Part shown: positions 52-22,959 of the stretch, one piece after another
Numbering within the stretch: position 1 is the first letter of the stretch
Layout of the letters: each line of letters opens with the position of its first letter
DNA from: Clostridia bacterium
Lineage (GTDB): Bacteria; Bacillota; Clostridia; Oscillospirales; QAMX01
Direction of reading: 5' to 3'
DNA: 33,526 nucleotides
Assembly (NCBI GenBank): GCA_017533425.1
Contig: JAFXIE010000089.1
Coordinates: forward strand, 1-33,526
Made by a program: the position numbers and the translations under genes
The notes under the pieces: generated by a model
Database searches by the model: none
The model's input: only the letters and a program-made list of their open reading frames with translations
What the model was told of the DNA's origin: nothing

Positions 52-80
52 AGTATAGCACACAAAAAGCGCAAAGTCAA
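52..80 (-). promoter_or_regulatory. Leftward sigma-A promoter
   Basis: Read on the minus strand, TTGACT (75-80) and TATACT (52-57) are separated by exactly 17 bp. The promoter fires out of the left edge of the window, so its gene is not visible. An imperfect dyad with outer arms CGAG/CTCG (about 18-38) lies at or just past the expected start site, where a repressor could sit. The core match is very good; the operator is a guess. Confidence 0.7.
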
Positions 81-213: not shown

Positions 214-243
214 AAAAAGCTGTCGTTTACCGACAGCTTTTTT
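214..243 (-). terminator. Intrinsic terminator after the small ORF
   Basis: A perfect 8-bp stem AGCTGTCG/CGACAGCT (218-225 and 231-238) with a 5-nt loop is flanked by A5 on the left and T6 on the right, so it can work in both directions. On the minus strand it lies just after the small ORF at 248-358 and ends that transcription unit. Confidence 0.85.
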
Positions 244-247
244 GAGT

Positions 248-358
248 TTAGCGCACATCCATGTTAGGACACAGTATGGAAATGGCGGCTACTTGGATAT
301 GCTTATACAATTCGGATTTGGATAGCATTGTGAACCTGGGCTTTTTCCACTCTTTCAT
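248..358 (-). CDS. Small peptide, RiPP-precursor-like (36 aa)
   Basis: This ORF encodes 36 residues: it starts MKEWKKPRF, continues with a helix-forming SELYKHIQVAAIS stretch and ends LCPNMDVR with a single Cys. A short N-terminal W-x-x-P leader followed by a short Cys-containing tail resembles leader-core organisation of ribosomally made, modified peptides, but I cannot assign a family and see no modification enzyme in the window. The ATG follows the regulator's stop codon by 2 nt. A GGAGG motif inside the last codons of the regulator lies 12 nt upstream, slightly far but usable. A strong terminator follows directly. Translation is therefore plausible and probably coupled to the upstream gene. 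It could also be a chance ORF or a short regulatory peptide. Confidence 0.5.
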   Translation of the reverse strand: MKEWKKPRFTMLSKSELYKHIQVAAISILCPNMDVR

Positions 359-360
359 AA

Positions 361-1416
361 TTAAAGTAAACCTCCGTTAGCGTATAGCTGCAATTTCTTC
401 GCGAGATCCTGGAACATGGAAGCGTTTATGCTGTAAAAAACCGTCTTTCCGACATTTCTTGTCTTCAATACGCCGGATTTAATCATAAGAGAAAGATGAT
501 AATATGCGTTTGGCGCGGAAAGCTGCAACGCTTGCTCCACTTCCTTTGCGGATACTTCTCTCTGCTTGTGAATCAAGTCGAGAATGGCCTGGCGGTTTGT
601 ATCAGAAATAGCCTGGCAAAAATTCTTGAGGTCAGGGCAAACGCTTTTCTTTTCCTTCAAGGCAAGCACATTCAAGTAATCACATCCAAGCATGAGCAGT
701 GCCGCTCCGTTGACAATATTGCAATAGATGACGGATTCTGCATATGAGCAAAAGGTGACATACACTTCCTGAAAACTTGAAAGATCAATGCGGCACAAGT
801 TTATTCTTTTGAGCATCTGTGTGACATCATCAAGAATAAATCCATCGCGCAGTTTAAGATGGCTGCTGTAGTTGCGATTATAGTCAAGCTGCTGCACAAA
901 GCTCTTTTCCAGCAGCTCATCAGATAATTTGCGGATTGCGGATTCCGGATCTATGAAAAAATCATAAAGATAAGCTTTTTGTTCGTGCGACAGAGAAGAC
1001 GATTTAATTACTTTGTTTACCGCAGTGATGGAGGTTCTGCATGGAATAATTTCGTCTTCACTGAGAGAAGGAAAATAGAAGGTGAGCACATTCTCGATGA
1101 TCTGGGTTGTGTGGTTAAGCTCTTCGCGAACCTTTGAGAGATTGTATCCGGAATTTGTCAGCAAATCTGCCTTGCGGTCAAAAAAATGATGGGACATCAT
1201 GCACTTTCCGGAATCATTCGTTTTGAAGAAAATAAACAGTTCATTGGAAATGGGCGGAATATTTTCCAGCAAATGCCTATAATGTGCCTGCTCTTCCGGG
1301 GTGGTTTGCAATGCGCTGTTGTTTGCGAAATACTTATCCCGGTTAAAGTGAAGAATAAAGAGGAAGAAAAGATCGTGCAATTGCCCGGGAGCATCTAAAA
1401 AAGTGATATGAGCCAT
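361..1416 (-). CDS. ArsR-type winged-helix transcriptional regulator
   Basis: The protein has 351 aa. Its last ~80 residues form an ArsR/SmtB-like winged helix: 'ISDTNRQAILDLI' for the first helix, 'VSAKEVEQALQLSAPNAYYH' for the recognition region and 'LKTRNVGKTVFYSI' for the wing. The first ~265 residues are a long, mostly helical domain I do not recognise, probably sensing or dimerisation. There is no ELCVCD-type metal site. The start is set by GGAGG four bases before the ATG. The gene is visibly AT-richer than trmB and the genes to its right, which suggests transfer. A 36-aa ORF follows by 2 nt and both end at the terminator at 214-243, so the regulator probably controls this small unit or the promoter at 52-80. 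No clear promoter of its own is visible in the 58 bp upstream; read-through from trmB is possible. Confidence 0.8.
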   Translation of the reverse strand: MAHITFLDAPGQLHDLFFLFILHFNRDKYFANNSALQTTPEEQAHYRHLLENIPPISNELFIFFKTNDSGKCMMSHHFFDRKADLLTNSGYNLSKVREELNHTTQIIENVLTFYFPSLSEDEIIPCRTSITAVNKVIKSSSLSHEQKAYLYDFFIDPESAIRKLSDELLEKSFVQQLDYNRNYSSHLKLRDGFILDDVTQMLKRINLCRIDLSSFQEVYVTFCSYAESVIYCNIVNGAALLMLGCDYLNVLALKEKKSVCPDLKNFCQAISDTNRQAILDLIHKQREVSAKEVEQALQLSAPNAYYHLSLMIKSGVLKTRNVGKTVFYSINASMFQDLAKKLQLYANGGLL

Positions 1417-9923: not shown

Positions 9924-11093
9924 ATGCAGTTGGATCTCGGAGAAATCATACGGGAACTGCGCCGGCGCCGGGGGTGCACGCAGGAGACGCTGGCCAAAGC
10001 CATCGGTGTGTCATCGCAGGCGGTGTCCCGATGGGAGGCGAACGGCGGATACCCCGATATGGAAACGCTTCCCCTCATTGCGAATTACTTTGGGGTCTCC
10101 ATTGATTATCTTTTTGGGTACAATAACGAGAGAGCGCTGCGCATCGACGAGGTGGTATCCAGAATCGAAACGATGAATCTGCAGAACAACGGGGTGGATG
10201 TCAATGTAGATCAATGCATTTCTCTGGCGCGGGAGGCCATGATCGAGTTCCCGGGAAATGAAAAGGTGATGCTGTGCCTTGCCTCCGTGCTGTATAACGC
10301 GGGATATGTCCGCCGGGGAGAGGTACACCGGACCGATGCGGAGGGCTACGACGTTTTCGATGCCGAGCGTCACCGCAGCTATCCGGAATGGGCCGAGGCC
10401 ATAGCACTATACGAAAAACTGCTGCAGACGGCGGATCCCGGGGAGCTGCGCAACCGGACGGTGAACGAGCTTTCTCAGCTGTATCAGAATGTGGGCGCCC
10501 ATGACCGTGCAAAGAGACTTGCCGAAACGGCACCGAGCATTCGCGGCTCACAGGAGTTTTTGAAAATGCGTTCGGCGGACGGAAAAGCTCGGGCTGTTGC
10601 CTGCGGAGAGGCGTTGCTCAAAACCGCCGGGGCGTGCTCGGAGCTGATGGTGCAGACCGTGCTGGGCAGCAAGAAGAATATGACCCCGGCGGAGAAGTCA
10701 CAGAGCCTGCGCGGTGCGGCGGGGATCATTGACCTCGTTTGCCCCGACGGAAATTGCGGCCACTATCACGACTATCTTTCTCAGCTATATATGCTGATCT
10801 CGCTGTATTTGTGGTTGGATGGGGAAAAGAATGCGGCCTTTGATGCGCTTTACGAAGCAATTTGGCATGTTGACCGGTTTTGTGCATATCTGGATGGAAA
10901 CGGTGACTATACGGCGCCGCTGGTACGCCTGGTTTCCCATAAGCCGAAAGGAAGAGGCGATTGCCCGCGCCCTACGAGACGCAATCTTTTGGCCGATTGG
11001 CCCGGCTGGTGTGTGCCGGAGGCGAAGACCGTGAAGGCGGAGATGCAGGCCGATCCCCGGTGGAATGCGTGGGTTGCAGAATTGGAGAAATAG
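9924..11093 (+). CDS. XRE-family regulator with TPR-like domain
   Basis: The 389-aa protein starts with a Cro/CI-type helix-turn-helix (about 5-60): 'IIRELRRRRGCTQETLAKAI', 'VSSQAVSRWE' as recognition helix, and 'LPLIANYFGVSIDYLFGY'. The rest is helical with TPR-like pairs ('ISLAREAMIEFPGNEKVMLC', 'EWAEAIALYEKLL'), a layout used to sense a peptide or partner. The start at 9924 is chosen by GGAGG 8 nt upstream and the domain boundary; a longer open frame back to 9570 overlaps the SGNH gene and is not real. It is 116 bp upstream of the ABC exporter gene and may control it. Confidence 0.85.
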   Translation: MQLDLGEIIRELRRRRGCTQETLAKAIGVSSQAVSRWEANGGYPDMETLPLIANYFGVSIDYLFGYNNERALRIDEVVSRIETMNLQNNGVDVNVDQCISLAREAMIEFPGNEKVMLCLASVLYNAGYVRRGEVHRTDAEGYDVFDAERHRSYPEWAEAIALYEKLLQTADPGELRNRTVNELSQLYQNVGAHDRAKRLAETAPSIRGSQEFLKMRSADGKARAVACGEALLKTAGACSELMVQTVLGSKKNMTPAEKSQSLRGAAGIIDLVCPDGNCGHYHDYLSQLYMLISLYLWLDGEKNAAFDALYEAIWHVDRFCAYLDGNGDYTAPLVRLVSHKPKGRGDCPRPTRRNLLADWPGWCVPEAKTVKAEMQADPRWNAWVAELEK

Positions 11094-11209
11094 GTAAGAT
11101 TGTTTGGAAAAATCATGAACGAAAAGCAATACGGCAATGGAGATTGCTATAAAATAAGGTGTCGGGAAAGCAAAATGGTATCAGATTTTTCAAATGAAAG
11201 GTAAATACA

Positions 11210-12994
11210 ATGAAAAAGACCTTTAATATTGCGAGGAACATTGCCTGGCTCTGCAAACCGTATTGGAAATACGGCAGGCTTTTCTTTATCCTTTCGATGG
11301 TTCTGTCTGTCGGTCTGGCTCCTTTAAGCGATATTTTGTATGTGTATTCGCCGGAGATCATTGTGGACTTGCTGAACGAAGAAAAAGCATTTGGATATAT
11401 TGCTTTTATCGCGCTGGCGTTGGCCGGCGGTAACGTAGCATGCAATATTCTGCCAAAACTATTTAATCCCTATTTTGCAAAAAAACAGACAGAAATCGAT
11501 TTGGCTGTGGGAAAAGATATATATAAAAAAGCGACTGAGATTGACTATCGCTATGTGGATACCCCCAAATATTACAACGATTATTCTTGGGCATTAAATG
11601 AATATGCGAACCAGACGAACCGAACCTTTCGCTTTGTGAAAAAATTTCTCTCTTCCCTTTTGAGCGTGGTTGCGCTTGGAACAATTGTCATCGCTGTTGG
11701 CCCGTGGCTGTTGGCTATCGAGATCATTCAACTGCTGCTCCAGCATTTTTTGATTGATAAAAGAAATAAAGTCAATCTCAAAATGAAGGATGAGTTGGTT
11801 CCTATTGACAGACGGATTTCCTACTGTCACAGGCTTTTTTATTTGAAAGACTATTCGGCGGATATTAAATCGACGCCCCTCAAAGAATGGGCCTTTGCGG
11901 CATATGATACTGCCGGAAAAGAAAAGATTGCAACTAAATACCATTTTTCCAAGCGAACGGCAGCGATAACCATTGGACAGGAAGCTCTGTTTATTATCAC
12001 CGAGTTGTGTATTATTCTCTATTTGATTCAGAGCGTTGCTGCGGGAAACATTGCGGAAACAGGTCTGTATGTAACCATGCTTCTGTCTTTCTATCGGTTA
12101 GATTTCAAATTGTATGACCTGATTCAGCTTGTCGACGAAGCTGCCGATATCTCTATGAATGCAGAAAAGGTTCGCAATTTCTATAATACGGACTCTGAAA
12201 TTGAAAAACCCAAACAGCAGGTTAATCATCATTCAATAGGCGAAGGTAATTTTTCCATCGAGTTAAGAAATGTTAATTTTTCTTATGAAAGCTCGGAGTT
12301 TTCTCTTTCTGATATCAATCTTACGATTCATCCGGGAGAAAAAGTAGCAATAGTCGGAGAAAATGGTGTTGGCAAATCCACGCTTGTTAAATTGCTGATG
12401 AGATTGTATGATGTATCGGCCGGAGATATATTGATTAACGGAGTATCCATTAAAGATTATGCGGTGAATGATCTCCGGCAACATATTGGCATTGCTTTTC
12501 AAAACGCAAATGTGTATGCGATGACATTCGCGGAAAATCTGTCGTTGTTCGGCGCAACGTCTGTTTCGGAACTGGAGAAATTGGCGGGAGATTTGGACTT
12601 GTTACCTATTCTGGCGAAGAATCAAGCGGATTATAATTCTGCGATAACAAAGGAATTTGACGAAAACGGTATCGTTCTGTCAGGCGGCGAAGCACAGAGA
12701 ATTGCTTTGGCGCGGCTAATGACCCGCAATTGGGGATTGCTGCTTTTGGATGAACCGTCCTCTGCGCTGGATCCGATAGCCGAATACAGAATGAACCAAC
12801 ACATTATAAATACGGCAAACAAAGCCACAACAATCGTTGTGGCGCATCGCTTGTCCACAATCCGGAAGGTTGATAAGATCGTCGTAATGGATTGCGGCAG
12901 AATCATTGAAACCGGTTCACATGATGACCTCATGTCAATAAAGGGAAAATACTACGAAATGTTTTCAAAGCAGGCGGAGAACTATGTGAGCTAA
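11210..12994 (+). CDS. ABC exporter, fused permease and ATPase
   Basis: The 594-aa chain has an N-terminal six-helix exporter domain (about 20-310) and a C-terminal ATPase: Walker A 'GENGVGKST' (about 383-391), Q-loop 'IAFQNANVY', signature 'LSGGE' (about 490), Walker B 'LLLLDEPSSALD' and H-loop 'VVAHRLST'. All catalytic residues are present. There is no peptidase C39 domain, so it is not a leader-cleaving bacteriocin exporter. The intracellular 'YRYVDTPKYYNDYSWAL' is typical of Clostridial exporters of unknown cargo. It would function as a homodimer or with a partner not seen here. The gene is markedly AT-richer than glnN or dinB, suggesting acquisition. It ends at the terminator at 13035-13077. 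Confidence 0.9.
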   Translation: MKKTFNIARNIAWLCKPYWKYGRLFFILSMVLSVGLAPLSDILYVYSPEIIVDLLNEEKAFGYIAFIALALAGGNVACNILPKLFNPYFAKKQTEIDLAVGKDIYKKATEIDYRYVDTPKYYNDYSWALNEYANQTNRTFRFVKKFLSSLLSVVALGTIVIAVGPWLLAIEIIQLLLQHFLIDKRNKVNLKMKDELVPIDRRISYCHRLFYLKDYSADIKSTPLKEWAFAAYDTAGKEKIATKYHFSKRTAAITIGQEALFIITELCIILYLIQSVAAGNIAETGLYVTMLLSFYRLDFKLYDLIQLVDEAADISMNAEKVRNFYNTDSEIEKPKQQVNHHSIGEGNFSIELRNVNFSYESSEFSLSDINLTIHPGEKVAIVGENGVGKSTLVKLLMRLYDVSAGDILINGVSIKDYAVNDLRQHIGIAFQNANVYAMTFAENLSLFGATSVSELEKLAGDLDLLPILAKNQADYNSAITKEFDENGIVLSGGEAQRIALARLMTRNWGLLLLDEPSSALDPIAEYRMNQHIINTANKATTIVVAHRLSTIRKVDKIVVMDCGRIIETGSHDDLMSIKGKYYEMFSKQAENYVS

Positions 12995-13034
12995 ACGAGA
13001 CTGACATTGCATCGGCAATGGTTAATATCGGCAC

Positions 13035-13077
13035 AAAAAAGGGGAAGACGCGTACAGTACGTGTCTTCCCCTTTTTG
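13035..13077. terminator. Bidirectional terminator between ABC gene and glnN
   Basis: A long hairpin, GGGGAAGACGCGTAC (13041-13055) against GTACGTGTCTTCCCC (13057-13071), is flanked by A6 and T5. It serves both convergent genes. Confidence 0.9.
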
Positions 13078-13096
13078 GATCTTTGGCATATGTTTG

Positions 13097-15190
<2,094 letters not shown>

Positions 15191-19513: not shown

Positions 19514-20064
19514 CTACATGTATTCTTCTCGTTATCATGCTCTCTATCCTTTGCACAGGATGTTTTTTCACAAAGACGCAGGATGAGCGGTTTCATGCGG
19601 TACTGAAAGGTGAGCAGGAATGTATCACCGCTGATGGCAAAGCCCACAAGCTTTCCGATTTAGTGCCGCATTCTGCCAAAGCAGCATCCTACGCGCTTCT
19701 TGATATGGATGGTGACACCACAGAAGAAATGCTGGTCTCTTTTGAAGTTAACGGTTATGCTGAATATATTGTATTACTGCACGAAGAGGAAAAGACGGTT
19801 CGGGCATGGCTTTTGGGTAAGCGGCAAATGTATGATATTCGTGCAGACGGATCGTTTTGCGCCACTGACAACGCGTCAGAAACATGGTATTATAAAATCC
19901 TTTTGCATGAAGGCTTGTTGTACAAATCTGAAATTGCTTACTGTTCCCATCATGAAGAGTTATATCGTGTAAACGGTGCGCCAGCAAGCAGAGCGGTTTT
20001 TGACGAATATATCACAGAACGAGAGCAGATAGCAGCAATTGATTTTATTCCTTTGGTAAATTAA
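19504..20064 (+). CDS. Small lipoprotein with DxDGD loop
   Basis: The protein has 186 aa, with a signal peptide ending ILCTGC (Cys20). The mature part contains 'YALLDMDGDTTEEMLVSF', a D-x-D-G-D-x-x-x-E loop like those of calcium-binding or VCBS-type extracellular proteins, followed by beta strands. No function can be given. The gene is AT-richer than its neighbours and lies between two 96-bp direct repeats, so it looks like a unit inserted by, or left after, a duplication. The start is set by GAAAGGAG upstream; its leader is almost the same as that of 20192-20932. Confidence 0.72.
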   Translation: MKKTTCILLVIMLSILCTGCFFTKTQDERFHAVLKGEQECITADGKAHKLSDLVPHSAKAASYALLDMDGDTTEEMLVSFEVNGYAEYIVLLHEEEKTVRAWLLGKRQMYDIRADGSFCATDNASETWYYKILLHEGLLYKSEIAYCSHHEELYRVNGAPASRAVFDEYITEREQIAAIDFIPLVN

Positions 20065-20104
20065 GTAGCACAGGGGGACGGTTCTGTGTGTTGCCTGTGC
20101 TTTC
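20054..20104 (+). repeat. 51-bp repeat, copy 1 (hairpin-forming)
   Basis: It covers the stop of the 19504-20064 gene and the spacer. It matches about 20948-20997 with one indel and very few substitutions. In this copy GCACAGG (20068-20074) pairs with CCTGTGC (20094-20100) around the GGGGGACGGTTCTGTGTG core. The T run after it is short (ttt), so a terminator role is weak; a REP-like palindromic element is possible. Confidence 0.85.
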
Positions 20105-20105
20105 A

Positions 20106-20201
20106 CATTGGCGGCGAATTTGCCATCTTTACGGTTTTGAGATAAAAAACGTGCCGTACATGATCCATATCACCCGAAAGGAGTTCCCACAATGAAAAAG
20201 A
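20106..20201 (+). repeat. 96-bp direct repeat, copy 2
   Basis: It carries an orphan copy of the last 12-13 codons of the 18723-19457 gene ('GGEFAIFTVLR' plus stop), then the same leader and ribosome site, and runs into the start of the 20192 gene. The orphan tail has no gene in front of it. Confidence 0.95.
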
Positions 20202-20932
20202 TGATCTCCCTTTTCCTCTGTCTCGCACTTCTGCTCTGCATTTGCTCGTTCTCCGGCTGTGAGAAAGATAAAACGCTTTCGGCAACGGGGGAATATAATG
20301 GGCAGAAGATTACCATGACGTATAGCGGTCCAACGGATATCCCATTTCCCTATGATATGTCCTTCATGAAGCAGGTCAATGGCTATACCGTGTTTTTCGA
20401 CTATTCAAATTATGTGGAGGGGGATATTTACACTGCCGGTTTCAATGTCATGGATGCAGAGGGAAATATCCTTTTTGATAAGGTTTATGACGGTATGACC
20501 CATGTTGATGAAGAGGGCTGGTGTGCTGTGCAAGAATATCCTCGCGAAGCGGGGGTGTATCGCATGCTCCATGTCAGCGGAGAGTCTTATGCAATCACGA
20601 AAGAAGAATTTTATAGCCATTTCGACAAAATGTATGAGGCATACGATAAATATAACGATTTTGCACAGGAACCCGACTTTCTTGCCCTTAGGGATGGTCA
20701 GTATACCGGATACCTCTACAATGGGCTTGCACCGTACGTCATGTTGAATCCGGACGAGGAAAGCCGCTACTATTATTTGATGGGGCTCTGTGATGCGGAG
20801 GGAAATATTGTGATCCCCGCGTTTATTCCTGCTTGCCACGATGTAAAAGGAGCTGTTATCGCCTTAAGCGAAGATCGTATATATTTTCAGGACTACGATA
20901 AAATCGGTTATGTGACGGTAACCAGAGAATAA
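20192..20932 (+). CDS. WG-repeat-like lipoprotein, single unit
   Basis: The protein has 246 aa with lipid Cys23 in 'SFSGC'. The mature part starts 'TGEYNGQKITMTY' and ends with 'CDAEGNIVIPAFIPAC' and 'KIGYVTVTRE', the same unit found twice at 17325-18695 and once at 23388-24608. The central part ('YEAYDKYNDFAQEPDFLALR') is its own. It is probably an exported, membrane-anchored beta-rich protein of unknown role. Codon use is more AT-rich than in 23388-24608 although the proteins are related, so they have diverged or arrived separately. Confidence 0.75.
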   Translation: MKKMISLFLCLALLLCICSFSGCEKDKTLSATGEYNGQKITMTYSGPTDIPFPYDMSFMKQVNGYTVFFDYSNYVEGDIYTAGFNVMDAEGNILFDKVYDGMTHVDEEGWCAVQEYPREAGVYRMLHVSGESYAITKEEFYSHFDKMYEAYDKYNDFAQEPDFLALRDGQYTGYLYNGLAPYVMLNPDEESRYYYLMGLCDAEGNIVIPAFIPACHDVKGAVIALSEDRIYFQDYDKIGYVTVTRE

Positions 20933-20947
20933 CAAAAAAGCGACAGA

Positions 20948-20997
20948 TGGTAAATTAAGTAGCACGGGGGACGGTTCTGTGTGTTGCCTGCGCTTTC
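20948..20997 (+). repeat. 51-bp repeat, copy 2
   Basis: It retains the 'GGTAAATTAAGTAGCAC' tail of the 19504-20064 gene, now stranded after an unrelated gene, and the GGGGGACGGTTCTGTGTG core. Its outer arms no longer pair well. Confidence 0.85.
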
Positions 20998-21019
20998 ATA
21001 TCAACCGAAAGGAGCAGCC

Positions 21020-21607
21020 ATGAAAAAGTTTCTCTTTGTTTCTCAGTGTCTTGTGTTTTTACTTTATCTATGCGCCTGTACAGGAATAAGAGAGCTTCCT
21101 GCGGCCGAGCTCCAGGAGATTGAAAATTACCTGAACGACGATGTAAACAATGGCTTTATCTGCTACAACACATATACACGTCCGGAAGAGATTTCTCTCC
21201 GGGATGTCTTTTACGACGGTGCCGGGGTTCGTCGAAACACGCCGTTAAGTGACGAAGAACGCGCATATTTCGGCGACAAAGAATACCTGCTTTCTTTTCT
21301 CAGCTACATAACCCATGAAGACGCAGAAAAAGTGGTGAGGGAAAAGCTGGGGATCCCTATGTCAGAAGTCTATACAAGCTTCGAGAAAACCGACGGATAT
21401 ATAGCTTCGTTTGACAAATTATATTATTCTCATTCGGATTGCCAGTACTGCTTTATAGAAGTGCTTTCCGGTCATACCGACGAGCTCGGGCGCTATGTTA
21501 TAGAATATCAAGACAATTCACACGAAGAACCCGATTTCAAGGCCGTTGTTACCTTGAATAAGGTTGGGGATATCTATCAATTCGTTTCAAATGCAATAAT
21601 CCATTGA
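21020..21607 (+). CDS. Lipoprotein, ELQEIEN domain
   Basis: The protein has 195 aa with a signal peptide ending YLCAC (Cys20). The mature part has 'AAELQEIENYLNDDVNNGFI', 'DVFYDGAGVRRNTPLSDEE' and, near the end, 'YVIEYQD' and 'KAVVTLNKVGDIYQFVSN'. The same landmarks occur in order in residues 24-205 of the protein at 21637-22959 (ELQEIENCLNSAEYNGFI, AFYDGAG, YEIEYIP, ATVTLIKTKTGFRFASN), so the two are paralogues. No function is known to me. The ATG at 21020 follows AAAGGAG; 13 extra in-frame codons upstream lie in the repeat spacer. Confidence 0.75.
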   Translation: MKKFLFVSQCLVFLLYLCACTGIRELPAAELQEIENYLNDDVNNGFICYNTYTRPEEISLRDVFYDGAGVRRNTPLSDEERAYFGDKEYLLSFLSYITHEDAEKVVREKLGIPMSEVYTSFEKTDGYIASFDKLYYSHSDCQYCFIEVLSGHTDELGRYVIEYQDNSHEEPDFKAVVTLNKVGDIYQFVSNAIIH

Positions 21608-21636
21608 AAAACTTACATTTCAGCAAGGGGGTTGAC

Positions 21637-22959
21637 ATGAAGAAAAGAAGTTCTTTTACCCTCTGCCTCGCGCTGCTTTTCTGCCTTTGCTCCTTCTCCG
21701 GCTGCGGTGAAGCAGAGAGCCTTTCCGCGGAAGAACTCCAGGAGATTGAAAATTGCCTGAACTCGGCAGAGTACAACGGATTTATCAACACATATTTCGA
21801 CTCGCTGGAGGAGATCGATCTCACCCGGGCGTTCTACGATGGCGCAGGCGCTGCTACCTTCGATCAGACAGGCTGGAGCGAGGAAGAAAAGGCCGATGTG
21901 TTAGCCGCCACAGGATGGGAGACCTATGCAGGTGCCGTGCTGAAGCTGACCGGAGATGCCGTTGAGAGCGTTCTTCAGGAACGGCTGGGGGTTTCACGGG
22001 GGCAGATGGCGGATAAACTTTCGGAGGCCATGCGATACGTTGAAAAATACGATGCCTATTACCTGATGCATGGAGATACAGATTACGCCCCTGTAACGAC
22101 CGTTGCAGGCCGTCGAACCGGGGATACATACGAAATTGAGTATATCCCGGAATCCTACACACCTGAGTATGCGACGGTTACGCTTATAAAAACAAAGACC
22201 GGATTTCGGTTTGCATCAAACAAAAGGACAGAGTCCGTGCATTCGGAGAAAACCTATGCGGCGGACATATCCTTTGATGGGGCGGAGGACCTGCTCGTTC
22301 TCCGGGAACGCACGGCGGCAGCACAGTACTGCTTTGCCTATGCCCGGCAGACGGAGAGTGGTCGGTATATTCAAATTGCTGGCTTTGAGGAGATCCCGAA
22401 TCCGGTACCAGATGCAGATGCCGGCGTGATCCTTGGCAGCCGATCCGGCGACGGGATCGTGAGCTATTCGATCTGGCGGTACGATTCGGAGAAAGTACAG
22501 GTTTCTCTCGTGCGCACACTGTGCTGGGAGGAGAAAACAGCCGGATGCGGATGGCTCCGGGAGGAGCAGTATTCCGCCGACGGAAGGGTGGAGACCGTGC
22601 GGGAGCAGTATGTGCCGATGATTGGCCGATATGACCTGGATATCTCTGCCCCGGAGGTGGCGGCGTATTATGCGGAAGGAAGTGAATGGTCGCTTTCGGA
22701 TGCAAAATGGACGGAAGGACTTGCCGAAGGCATAAAGCCCTGCCGGGATATGGGAGAGACCCAGGGCGAGACGCAGGAAATTGTGAGTCTCGATGGCAAA
22801 CTCTATCAGTCCTATGTCAATTCCGCCTCCGGCCTACGGTATATTTTCCTTAGCGCAGAGGAATACGATATGCAGGCCCTCTGGGACTGGATTGCAGTGG
22901 GTACGGAAAAGGAATACTCCCTCGATCTTCTCGGGAAAATGGATGAAGGCCGCAAATAA
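21637..22959 (+). CDS. Mosaic lipoprotein of three modules
   Basis: The protein has 440 aa with lipid Cys23 in 'SFSGC'. Three segments have separate relatives in this array: residues 24-205 match 21020-21607 (ELQEIEN domain); about 205-370 match 16552-17328 (D-x-F-D-G-x-x-D calcium-loop domain 'DISFDGAEDLLVL' at about 208); about 377-440 match 22994-23353 almost exactly ('LYQSYVNSASGLRYIFLSAE'). It therefore looks like a gene fusion made from array parts. The start at 21637 is chosen for AAGGGGG upstream and the signal peptide; a TTG at 21604 overlapping the previous stop is less likely. Exported and lipid-anchored; role unknown. Confidence 0.78.
   Translation: MKKRSSFTLCLALLFCLCSFSGCGEAESLSAEELQEIENCLNSAEYNGFINTYFDSLEEIDLTRAFYDGAGAATFDQTGWSEEEKADVLAATGWETYAGAVLKLTGDAVESVLQERLGVSRGQMADKLSEAMRYVEKYDAYYLMHGDTDYAPVTTVAGRRTGDTYEIEYIPESYTPEYATVTLIKTKTGFRFASNKRTESVHSEKTYAADISFDGAEDLLVLRERTAAAQYCFAYARQTESGRYIQIAGFEEIPNPVPDADAGVILGSRSGDGIVSYSIWRYDSEKVQVSLVRTLCWEEKTAGCGWLREEQYSADGRVETVREQYVPMIGRYDLDISAPEVAAYYAEGSEWSLSDAKWTEGLAEGIKPCRDMGETQGETQEIVSLDGKLYQSYVNSASGLRYIFLSAEEYDMQALWDWIAVGTEKEYSLDLLGKMDEGRK

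Follow-up and report, generated by a model that had tools for sequence, protein, structure and literature searches.

The window analysed here, a stretch of 33,526 nt, is one entire contig of a 151-contig assembly, and its position 1 is a contig end. Near this end, an ATG-started open reading frame (248..358, minus strand, stop codon included) encodes a peptide of 36 amino acid residues, MKEWKKPRFTMLSKSELYKHIQVAAISILCPNMDVR, directly behind a gene for a regulator of 351 amino acid residues (361..1416, minus strand). The stop codon of the regulator (361-363) is separated from the ATG of the peptide by 2 nt, and a Shine-Dalgarno-like GGAGG (371..375, minus strand) is located 12 nt 5' of this ATG, within the 3' end of the regulator gene. 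The hairpin of an intrinsic terminator (214..242, minus strand; 12 pairs and a T-run) begins 5 nt beyond the stop codon of the peptide (248-250). This arrangement had been described in the first-pass annotation and was confirmed. The terminator was the sole terminator-like site detected at 1-1600 (242-214, minus strand), a scan that by itself proves nothing given an average of 1.7 sites in shuffled sequences; the nearest relative, however, has preserved the hairpin. Further to the left, a sigma-70-like promoter (52..80, minus strand; TTGACT-17-TATACT, 10/12) faces off the contig. It had been called strong, and the site does exist, but its score was not above chance (two promoter-like sites in the scan against 2.6 expected from shuffles); it is considered here because the nearest relative has TTGACA-17-TATACT at the unchanged position, where it precedes a radical SAM gene, and not because of the score. 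The surroundings are AT-rich, as had also been noted, with a GC content of 0.41 at 1-1000, whereas the remaining 1-kb blocks have 0.42-0.66. The contig is mostly at 0.50-0.66, and low-GC stretches were also seen at 11001-13000 and 20001-22000 (0.42 and 0.45-0.48).

Three genomes of the genus were compared, namely that of the window (G000), G001 and the nearest relative, G002. The regulator was present in all three, and in both relatives the peptide frame was found at the same location with the same start, stop and length of 36 codons, the window peptide being 89% and 47% identical to those of the two relatives. The peptide genes of the window and G002 differ at 13 of 111 nt (4, 1 and 8 differences at the three codon positions), and residues 21-36 are unchanged. 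According to the Nei-Gojobori method, dS was 0.56 and dN 0.054, giving a dN/dS of 0.096, a rough figure from 36 codons only that nonetheless complements the conservation seen more widely; that of the regulator was 0.164. The peptide frame is thus under purifying selection between the window and G002, and we are highly confident that the ORF at 248-358 is a genuine precursor gene. Loss of the frame in regulator-bearing relatives, which the first-pass annotation had named as the finding that would speak against its proposal, was not observed within the genus.

Profile searches were then used to follow the peptide beyond the genus. A profile of the three peptides matched seven places in six of the 21 family genomes; four were new, and all four sit behind a homolog of the regulator, of which only the C-terminal part is in frame in G020. 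With a profile of seven peptides, 14 places were matched in 12 of 394 order genomes, and the seven new places comprised five behind a regulator homolog, one in a cluster containing one (G059) and one spurious match (G051). Searches with the peptide only therefore reached other genera, at places behind homologs of the same regulator. At class level, nine of 392 genomes were matched. Seven places (two each in G405 and G477, and one each in G403, G676 and G485) resemble a divergent branch in which the W-x-x-P leader is kept but the core differs, having mostly ..ACS or ..GCS and no Arg pattern at its end; four of them (G405:C13, both of G477, and G403) lie behind a regulator homolog, and none was found within the locus for the other three. 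The matches in G051, G691, G706 and G395 were judged by eye and rejected as family members. Among 398 phylum genomes the window's own genome was the single match, and the 36-residue type, as sampled, is limited to Clostridia and a single contig (L057) from a bin that carries the name Opitutales.

Alignment of 27 members, a selected set leaving out a 50-residue ORF of G015 and the seven class-level places, revealed a shared pattern, K-x-W-x-x-P...L...(A)x-S...C....R-stop, in every row. Seven residues (K2, W4, P7, L17, S27, C30 and R36) are invariant in 27/27 members down to 25% identity, the precursors range from 34 to 41 residues, and two places after W-x-x-P most rows have a hydrophobic residue or Cys. 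The pattern suggests a leader of ~25 residues and a core of ~8-14 residues with the form X-S-(x)0-4-C-(x)4-6-R. In the window, the predicted leader (residues 1-25, MKEWKKPRFTMLSKSELYKHIQVAA; 284..358, minus strand) would end at the conserved A-x-S junction, a boundary placed with the help of the signal-peptidase-like protease described below, and the predicted core (residues 26-36, ISILCPNMDVR; 251..283, minus strand) carries the invariant S27, C30 and C-terminal R36. By analogy, the W4-x-x-P7 motif (338..349, minus strand) is likely the counterpart of the YxxPxL motif of lasso leaders (PMC10368454); a recognition-element fold matching a leader-bound lasso B1 protein was modelled for a protein of the L069 cluster. 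The peptide belongs to none of the families of the Pfam and NCBIfam models, and precursors of this size would therefore be missed by pipelines whose annotation depends on models of this kind.

The regulator combines an N-terminal domain of unknown fold with an ArsR-type winged helix (residues ~265-340), which was recognized by Pfam HTH_20 (7.6e-8), by the NCBIfam ArsR/SdpR domains and by PDB matches to a structure model. Among the 50 PDB matches listed, only ArsR-type winged helices occurred, and none covered the N-terminal 260 residues. A regulator-based set of 37 loci was assembled from named metagenome bins, many of whose titles refer to animal guts. In 20 loci the start of the peptide falls at -4 to +19 nt relative to the regulator stop, and in one (L086) the peptide lies elsewhere, giving 21/37 peptide-positive loci; in the other 16 the peptide was not found in the fetched sequence. 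When the profile was run against 14428 frames, matches below 1e-4 were limited to the known peptides, renamed duplicate loci and L042, which serves as a background check and not as independent discovery, the profile having been built from most of those peptides. On the regulator tree, peptide presence could be explained by 9 changes, compared with 11.9 when the labels were shuffled (a count as low was reached in 25 of 500 cases), and is only mildly clustered; L068, without a peptide, is nested in a peptide-bearing clade. The regulator of L057, on the contig binned to Opitutales (Verrucomicrobiota), groups with a Clostridia one (support 93/99), which suggests misbinning or transfer. Regulator paralogs, 32% identical and with no peptide behind them, were also seen at G000:C3:10598-11599 (minus strand; L006) and G001:C1:392-1414 (plus strand; L005), and two diverged tandem precursor copies follow a single regulator at L067:1355-1661 and L073:10025-10323 (plus strand).

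The genes next to the peptide were compared across the relatives. In G002, to the left of the peptide and terminator, the conserved promoter is followed by genes for a radical SAM/SPASM enzyme, a PqqD-like protein, an HPr-kinase-like protein and a membrane protein, in agreement with the earlier suggestion that modification or export genes could lie on this side. In G001, the kinase and regulator genes point away from each other, and the peptide is followed by genes for an S24/S26 protease and an NTP_transf_5 protein. At many other loci, NTP_transf_5, radical SAM, PqqD and protease, and kinase genes are divergent from the regulator and peptide; PqqD and protease are often a single protein of 240 amino acid residues. 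Enzymes found in further relatives were radical SAM, S24/S26 protease, PqqD, kinase, NTP_transf_5 and ABC exporters, and several clusters further contain an acyl-carrier-domain protein and ABC transporters, the latter including the two proteins of 600 amino acid residues in L069. The set of radical SAM enzyme, S24 protease and HPr kinase was present in 10/21 peptide-positive against 1/16 peptide-negative loci (Fisher p 0.010), and at least the HPr kinase in 13/21 against 1/16 (p 0.0006), counts that ignore the relatedness of the loci and their unequal flank lengths. In eight of the 21 loci with a peptide, the fetched sequence contains none of these enzymes, some of the eight being on short contigs. 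Orphan pairs of regulator and peptide exist (e.g., L061, L062 and L090), and the genome that contains L061 also carries the complete cluster L065.

No enzyme is visible beside the window peptide because the contig ends at position 1. The upstream neighbours, a GDSL hydrolase gene and trmB, are common to the window and G002, and on this basis the cluster most likely runs off the contig as it does in G002; in G001 the trmB neighbour was not found. The window's genome, a metagenome-assembled genome that is 86% complete, gave only weak, unrelated matches when searched with the G002 radical SAM enzyme (5.7e-8 and 8.3e-4), and with the kinase profile only a match of 2.4e-5 over ~70 of 269 positions was obtained; neither a radical SAM ortholog nor a cluster kinase was found in it.

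The enzymes of the relatives keep the residues expected for catalysis. In 12 of 12 radical SAM enzymes, CxxxCxxC and seven further Cys residues are invariant, while the G002 and L060 enzymes are only 30% identical; their best NCBIfam models were StsB (2.4e-26) and MftC (6.7e-29), respectively, both far below the cut-offs, and the sactipeptide and ranthipeptide maturase models StsB and PapB matched well below cut-off. The kinase has the catalytic His in 15/15, Lys in 14/15, the first Asp in 14/15 and the second Asp in 15/15 sequences, and the same His-Lys-Asp-Asp set is described for lasso kinases in PMC9266682. Ser28 and His65 of the protease, part of a Ser and a His-Arg motif, are invariant in 10/10, and the domain was matched to SEC11A in a sequence comparison (7.9e-5) and to SEC11C in a fold comparison (5.2e-4). 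For the L069 protease-PqqD fusion, an AlphaFold model (pLDDT 90.7) was matched by SEC11C over the protease and by the leader-bound lasso B1 protein TbiB1 over the PqqD part (TM 0.83 by target length). In sequence, fold, invariant Ser and His-Arg motif the protease resembles ER/archaeal-type signal peptidase I (SEC11), but it lacks an evident N-terminal membrane segment and is fused to a PqqD domain, and it is therefore probably a cytoplasmic leader peptidase.

Features by which a RiPP is generally recognized were thus found: an encoded precursor with a conserved leader and a variable core, as seen from the 27-member alignment and dN/dS, and, in the relatives, its clustering with modifying enzymes and a recognition element. 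The peptide is very likely a RiPP precursor, as the first-pass annotation had proposed from its leader-core appearance; the conserved frame, the purifying selection and the enzyme neighbourhoods of relatives all support this. It is likely, as a whole outline, that it is the precursor of an undescribed RiPP family and acts with the following enzymes, each chemical step being less certain. The PqqD domain would bind the leader through W4-x-x-P7, and the radical SAM enzyme would modify the short core, with the invariant Cys30 or a position close to it as the probable site. The HPr-kinase-like kinase would phosphorylate the invariant Ser27, and decoration of this residue by NTP_transf_5 may follow. 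Cleavage by the SEC11-like protease near A25/I26 would leave a core of ~11 residues ending in Arg, and an ABC exporter would release the mature peptide. The regulator is co-transcribed with the precursor and probably controls the cluster; perhaps it responds to the mature product, a guess from the gene pairing. A bolder and rather improbable proposal is a new RiPP class of gut Clostridia, in which a single W-x-x-P...A-x-S leader would serve an HPr-type kinase as well as a radical SAM/SPASM enzyme; the core X-S-(x)0-4-C-(x)4-6-R would carry a radical-made crosslink and a phosphoserine (or a sugar or nucleotide ester), be freed by a soluble SEC11-like protease with its own recognition domain, and be the ligand of the co-transcribed ArsR-type regulator.

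This set was compared with known systems. Radical SAM/SPASM RiPPs (mycofactocin, PQQ, sactipeptides and ranthipeptides) likewise have a SPASM enzyme with an RRE, but here the precursor is outside the NCBIfam and Pfam families and a kinase, NTP_transf_5 and a SEC11-RRE protease belong to the set. For the HPr-rel-A and SynChlorMet cassettes (NCBIfam names TIGR04352/04353 and TIGR0424x/0425x), the L060 PqqD protein is above the cut-offs of PF05402 and TIGR04353 (41.5 vs 35), the kinase resembles HprK_rel_A (45.2 vs a cut-off of 200) and ScmE/ScmF resemble the radical SAM enzyme, whereas the kinase and radical SAM enzyme here are far below the equivalog cut-offs; no paper on these names was found in the open-access literature. 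Among the papers listed by searches of that literature, supplements aside, no title or abstract start describes this set of enzymes and peptide, and the family seems to be as yet undescribed. If the RiPP reading is right, the family joins radical SAM chemistry with a lasso-type kinase and nucleotidyltransferase module, its hosts are uncultured Clostridia, mostly of animal guts, and its leader peptidase is of the signal-peptidase type, fused to a recognition element.

Regulator-peptide pairs such as Rgg-SHP and ComR-ComS raise the question of whether the adjacent regulator takes the peptide as its signal, the mature form of the peptide binding the N-terminal domain. This is compatible with the RiPP reading, and with the peptide directly behind 20 of 37 regulator homologs, including enzyme-free orphan pairs, we regard it as possible, if on balance improbable. 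Among the 50 PDB matches listed, there is no peptide receptor aligned to the N-terminal domain, both the leader motif and the set of enzymes are those of RiPP biosynthesis, and no common operator was apparent when inverted repeats in the inspected intergenic stretches were compared by eye. The close pair nevertheless offers a concrete, testable case of a modified peptide as a signal.

An unmodified, small antitoxin- or toxin-like peptide under control of the regulator would account for the small size, the coupling to the regulator and the variable core, but the co-occurring RiPP enzyme set and the leader architecture make it very improbable. Similarly remote is a lasso peptide precursor of the paeninodin or pseudomycoidin type, accompanied by a kinase and a nucleotidyltransferase as accessories. 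Phosphorylated lasso peptides (paeninodin, pseudomycoidin and Bradymonadales Bsf) do share a YxxPxL-like leader motif, which W-x-x-P resembles, a discrete PqqD/RRE protein, an HPr-type kinase with the His-Lys-Asp-Asp set, a nucleotidyltransferase and an ABC exporter, and PMC9266682, PMC7533575 and PMC10368454 present PqqD, the kinase and the nucleotidyltransferase as typical accessories of lasso clusters. According to PMC9266682 and PMC10368454, lasso precursors are phosphorylated on Ser, at the C-terminus by PadeK and PsmK and at core Ser3 by BsfK. One distant relative of the peptide also matches the paeninodin leader model weakly (E 0.0016, below the model's cut-off). However, the clusters here have a radical SAM/SPASM enzyme together with a SEC11-like protease of the Ser/His type, and the core is short and ends in Arg, without the Gly1/Asp-Glu ring pattern of lasso peptides, a rule given in part by PMC10368454. 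No asparagine-synthetase-type cyclase or transglutaminase-type B2 protease is present among the annotated genes of L060 and L069, the two most fully annotated clusters, and the lasso assignment was rejected on this ground. Finally, the ORF could be a leader or attenuator peptide or have arisen by chance in the 3' UTR of the regulator gene, in either case yielding no product of its own. This would fit a short frame at the transcript end next to a terminator, but is ruled out for practical purposes by the dN/dS and unchanged residues 21-36, the seven invariant residues over 27 members and the diverged tandem copies of L067 and L073.

Longer precursor-like ORFs were also observed beside radical SAM genes. 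In G002, a Cys-rich ORF of 70 amino acid residues ending in Arg (L009:1688-1900, minus strand) has the radical SAM gene on one side and the PqqD gene on the other; its sequence SELLETIRINADSVC aligns to SELYKHIQVAAIS of the window peptide, with none of 2000 shuffles scoring as high. At L039:13434-13661 (plus strand), an ORF of 57 amino acid residues starts with MYIKPTIIEIN (a Y-x-x-P leader), has a Gly/Cys-rich core and lies upstream of a radical SAM gene. Both are longer than the peptide and match the profile weakly, each beating 2000 of 2000 shuffles, and the G002 radical SAM enzyme may mainly serve its adjoining ORF. At the L057 locus, a second group of radical SAM, PqqD and P-loop proteins was found at 10670-13250. 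Proteins of ~400 amino acid residues with an acyl-carrier domain occur inside clusters at L069:5103-6278 (minus strand) and L085:14142-17968 (plus strand), the latter cluster also containing a BtrH_N-type protein, and these proteins might acylate the peptide.
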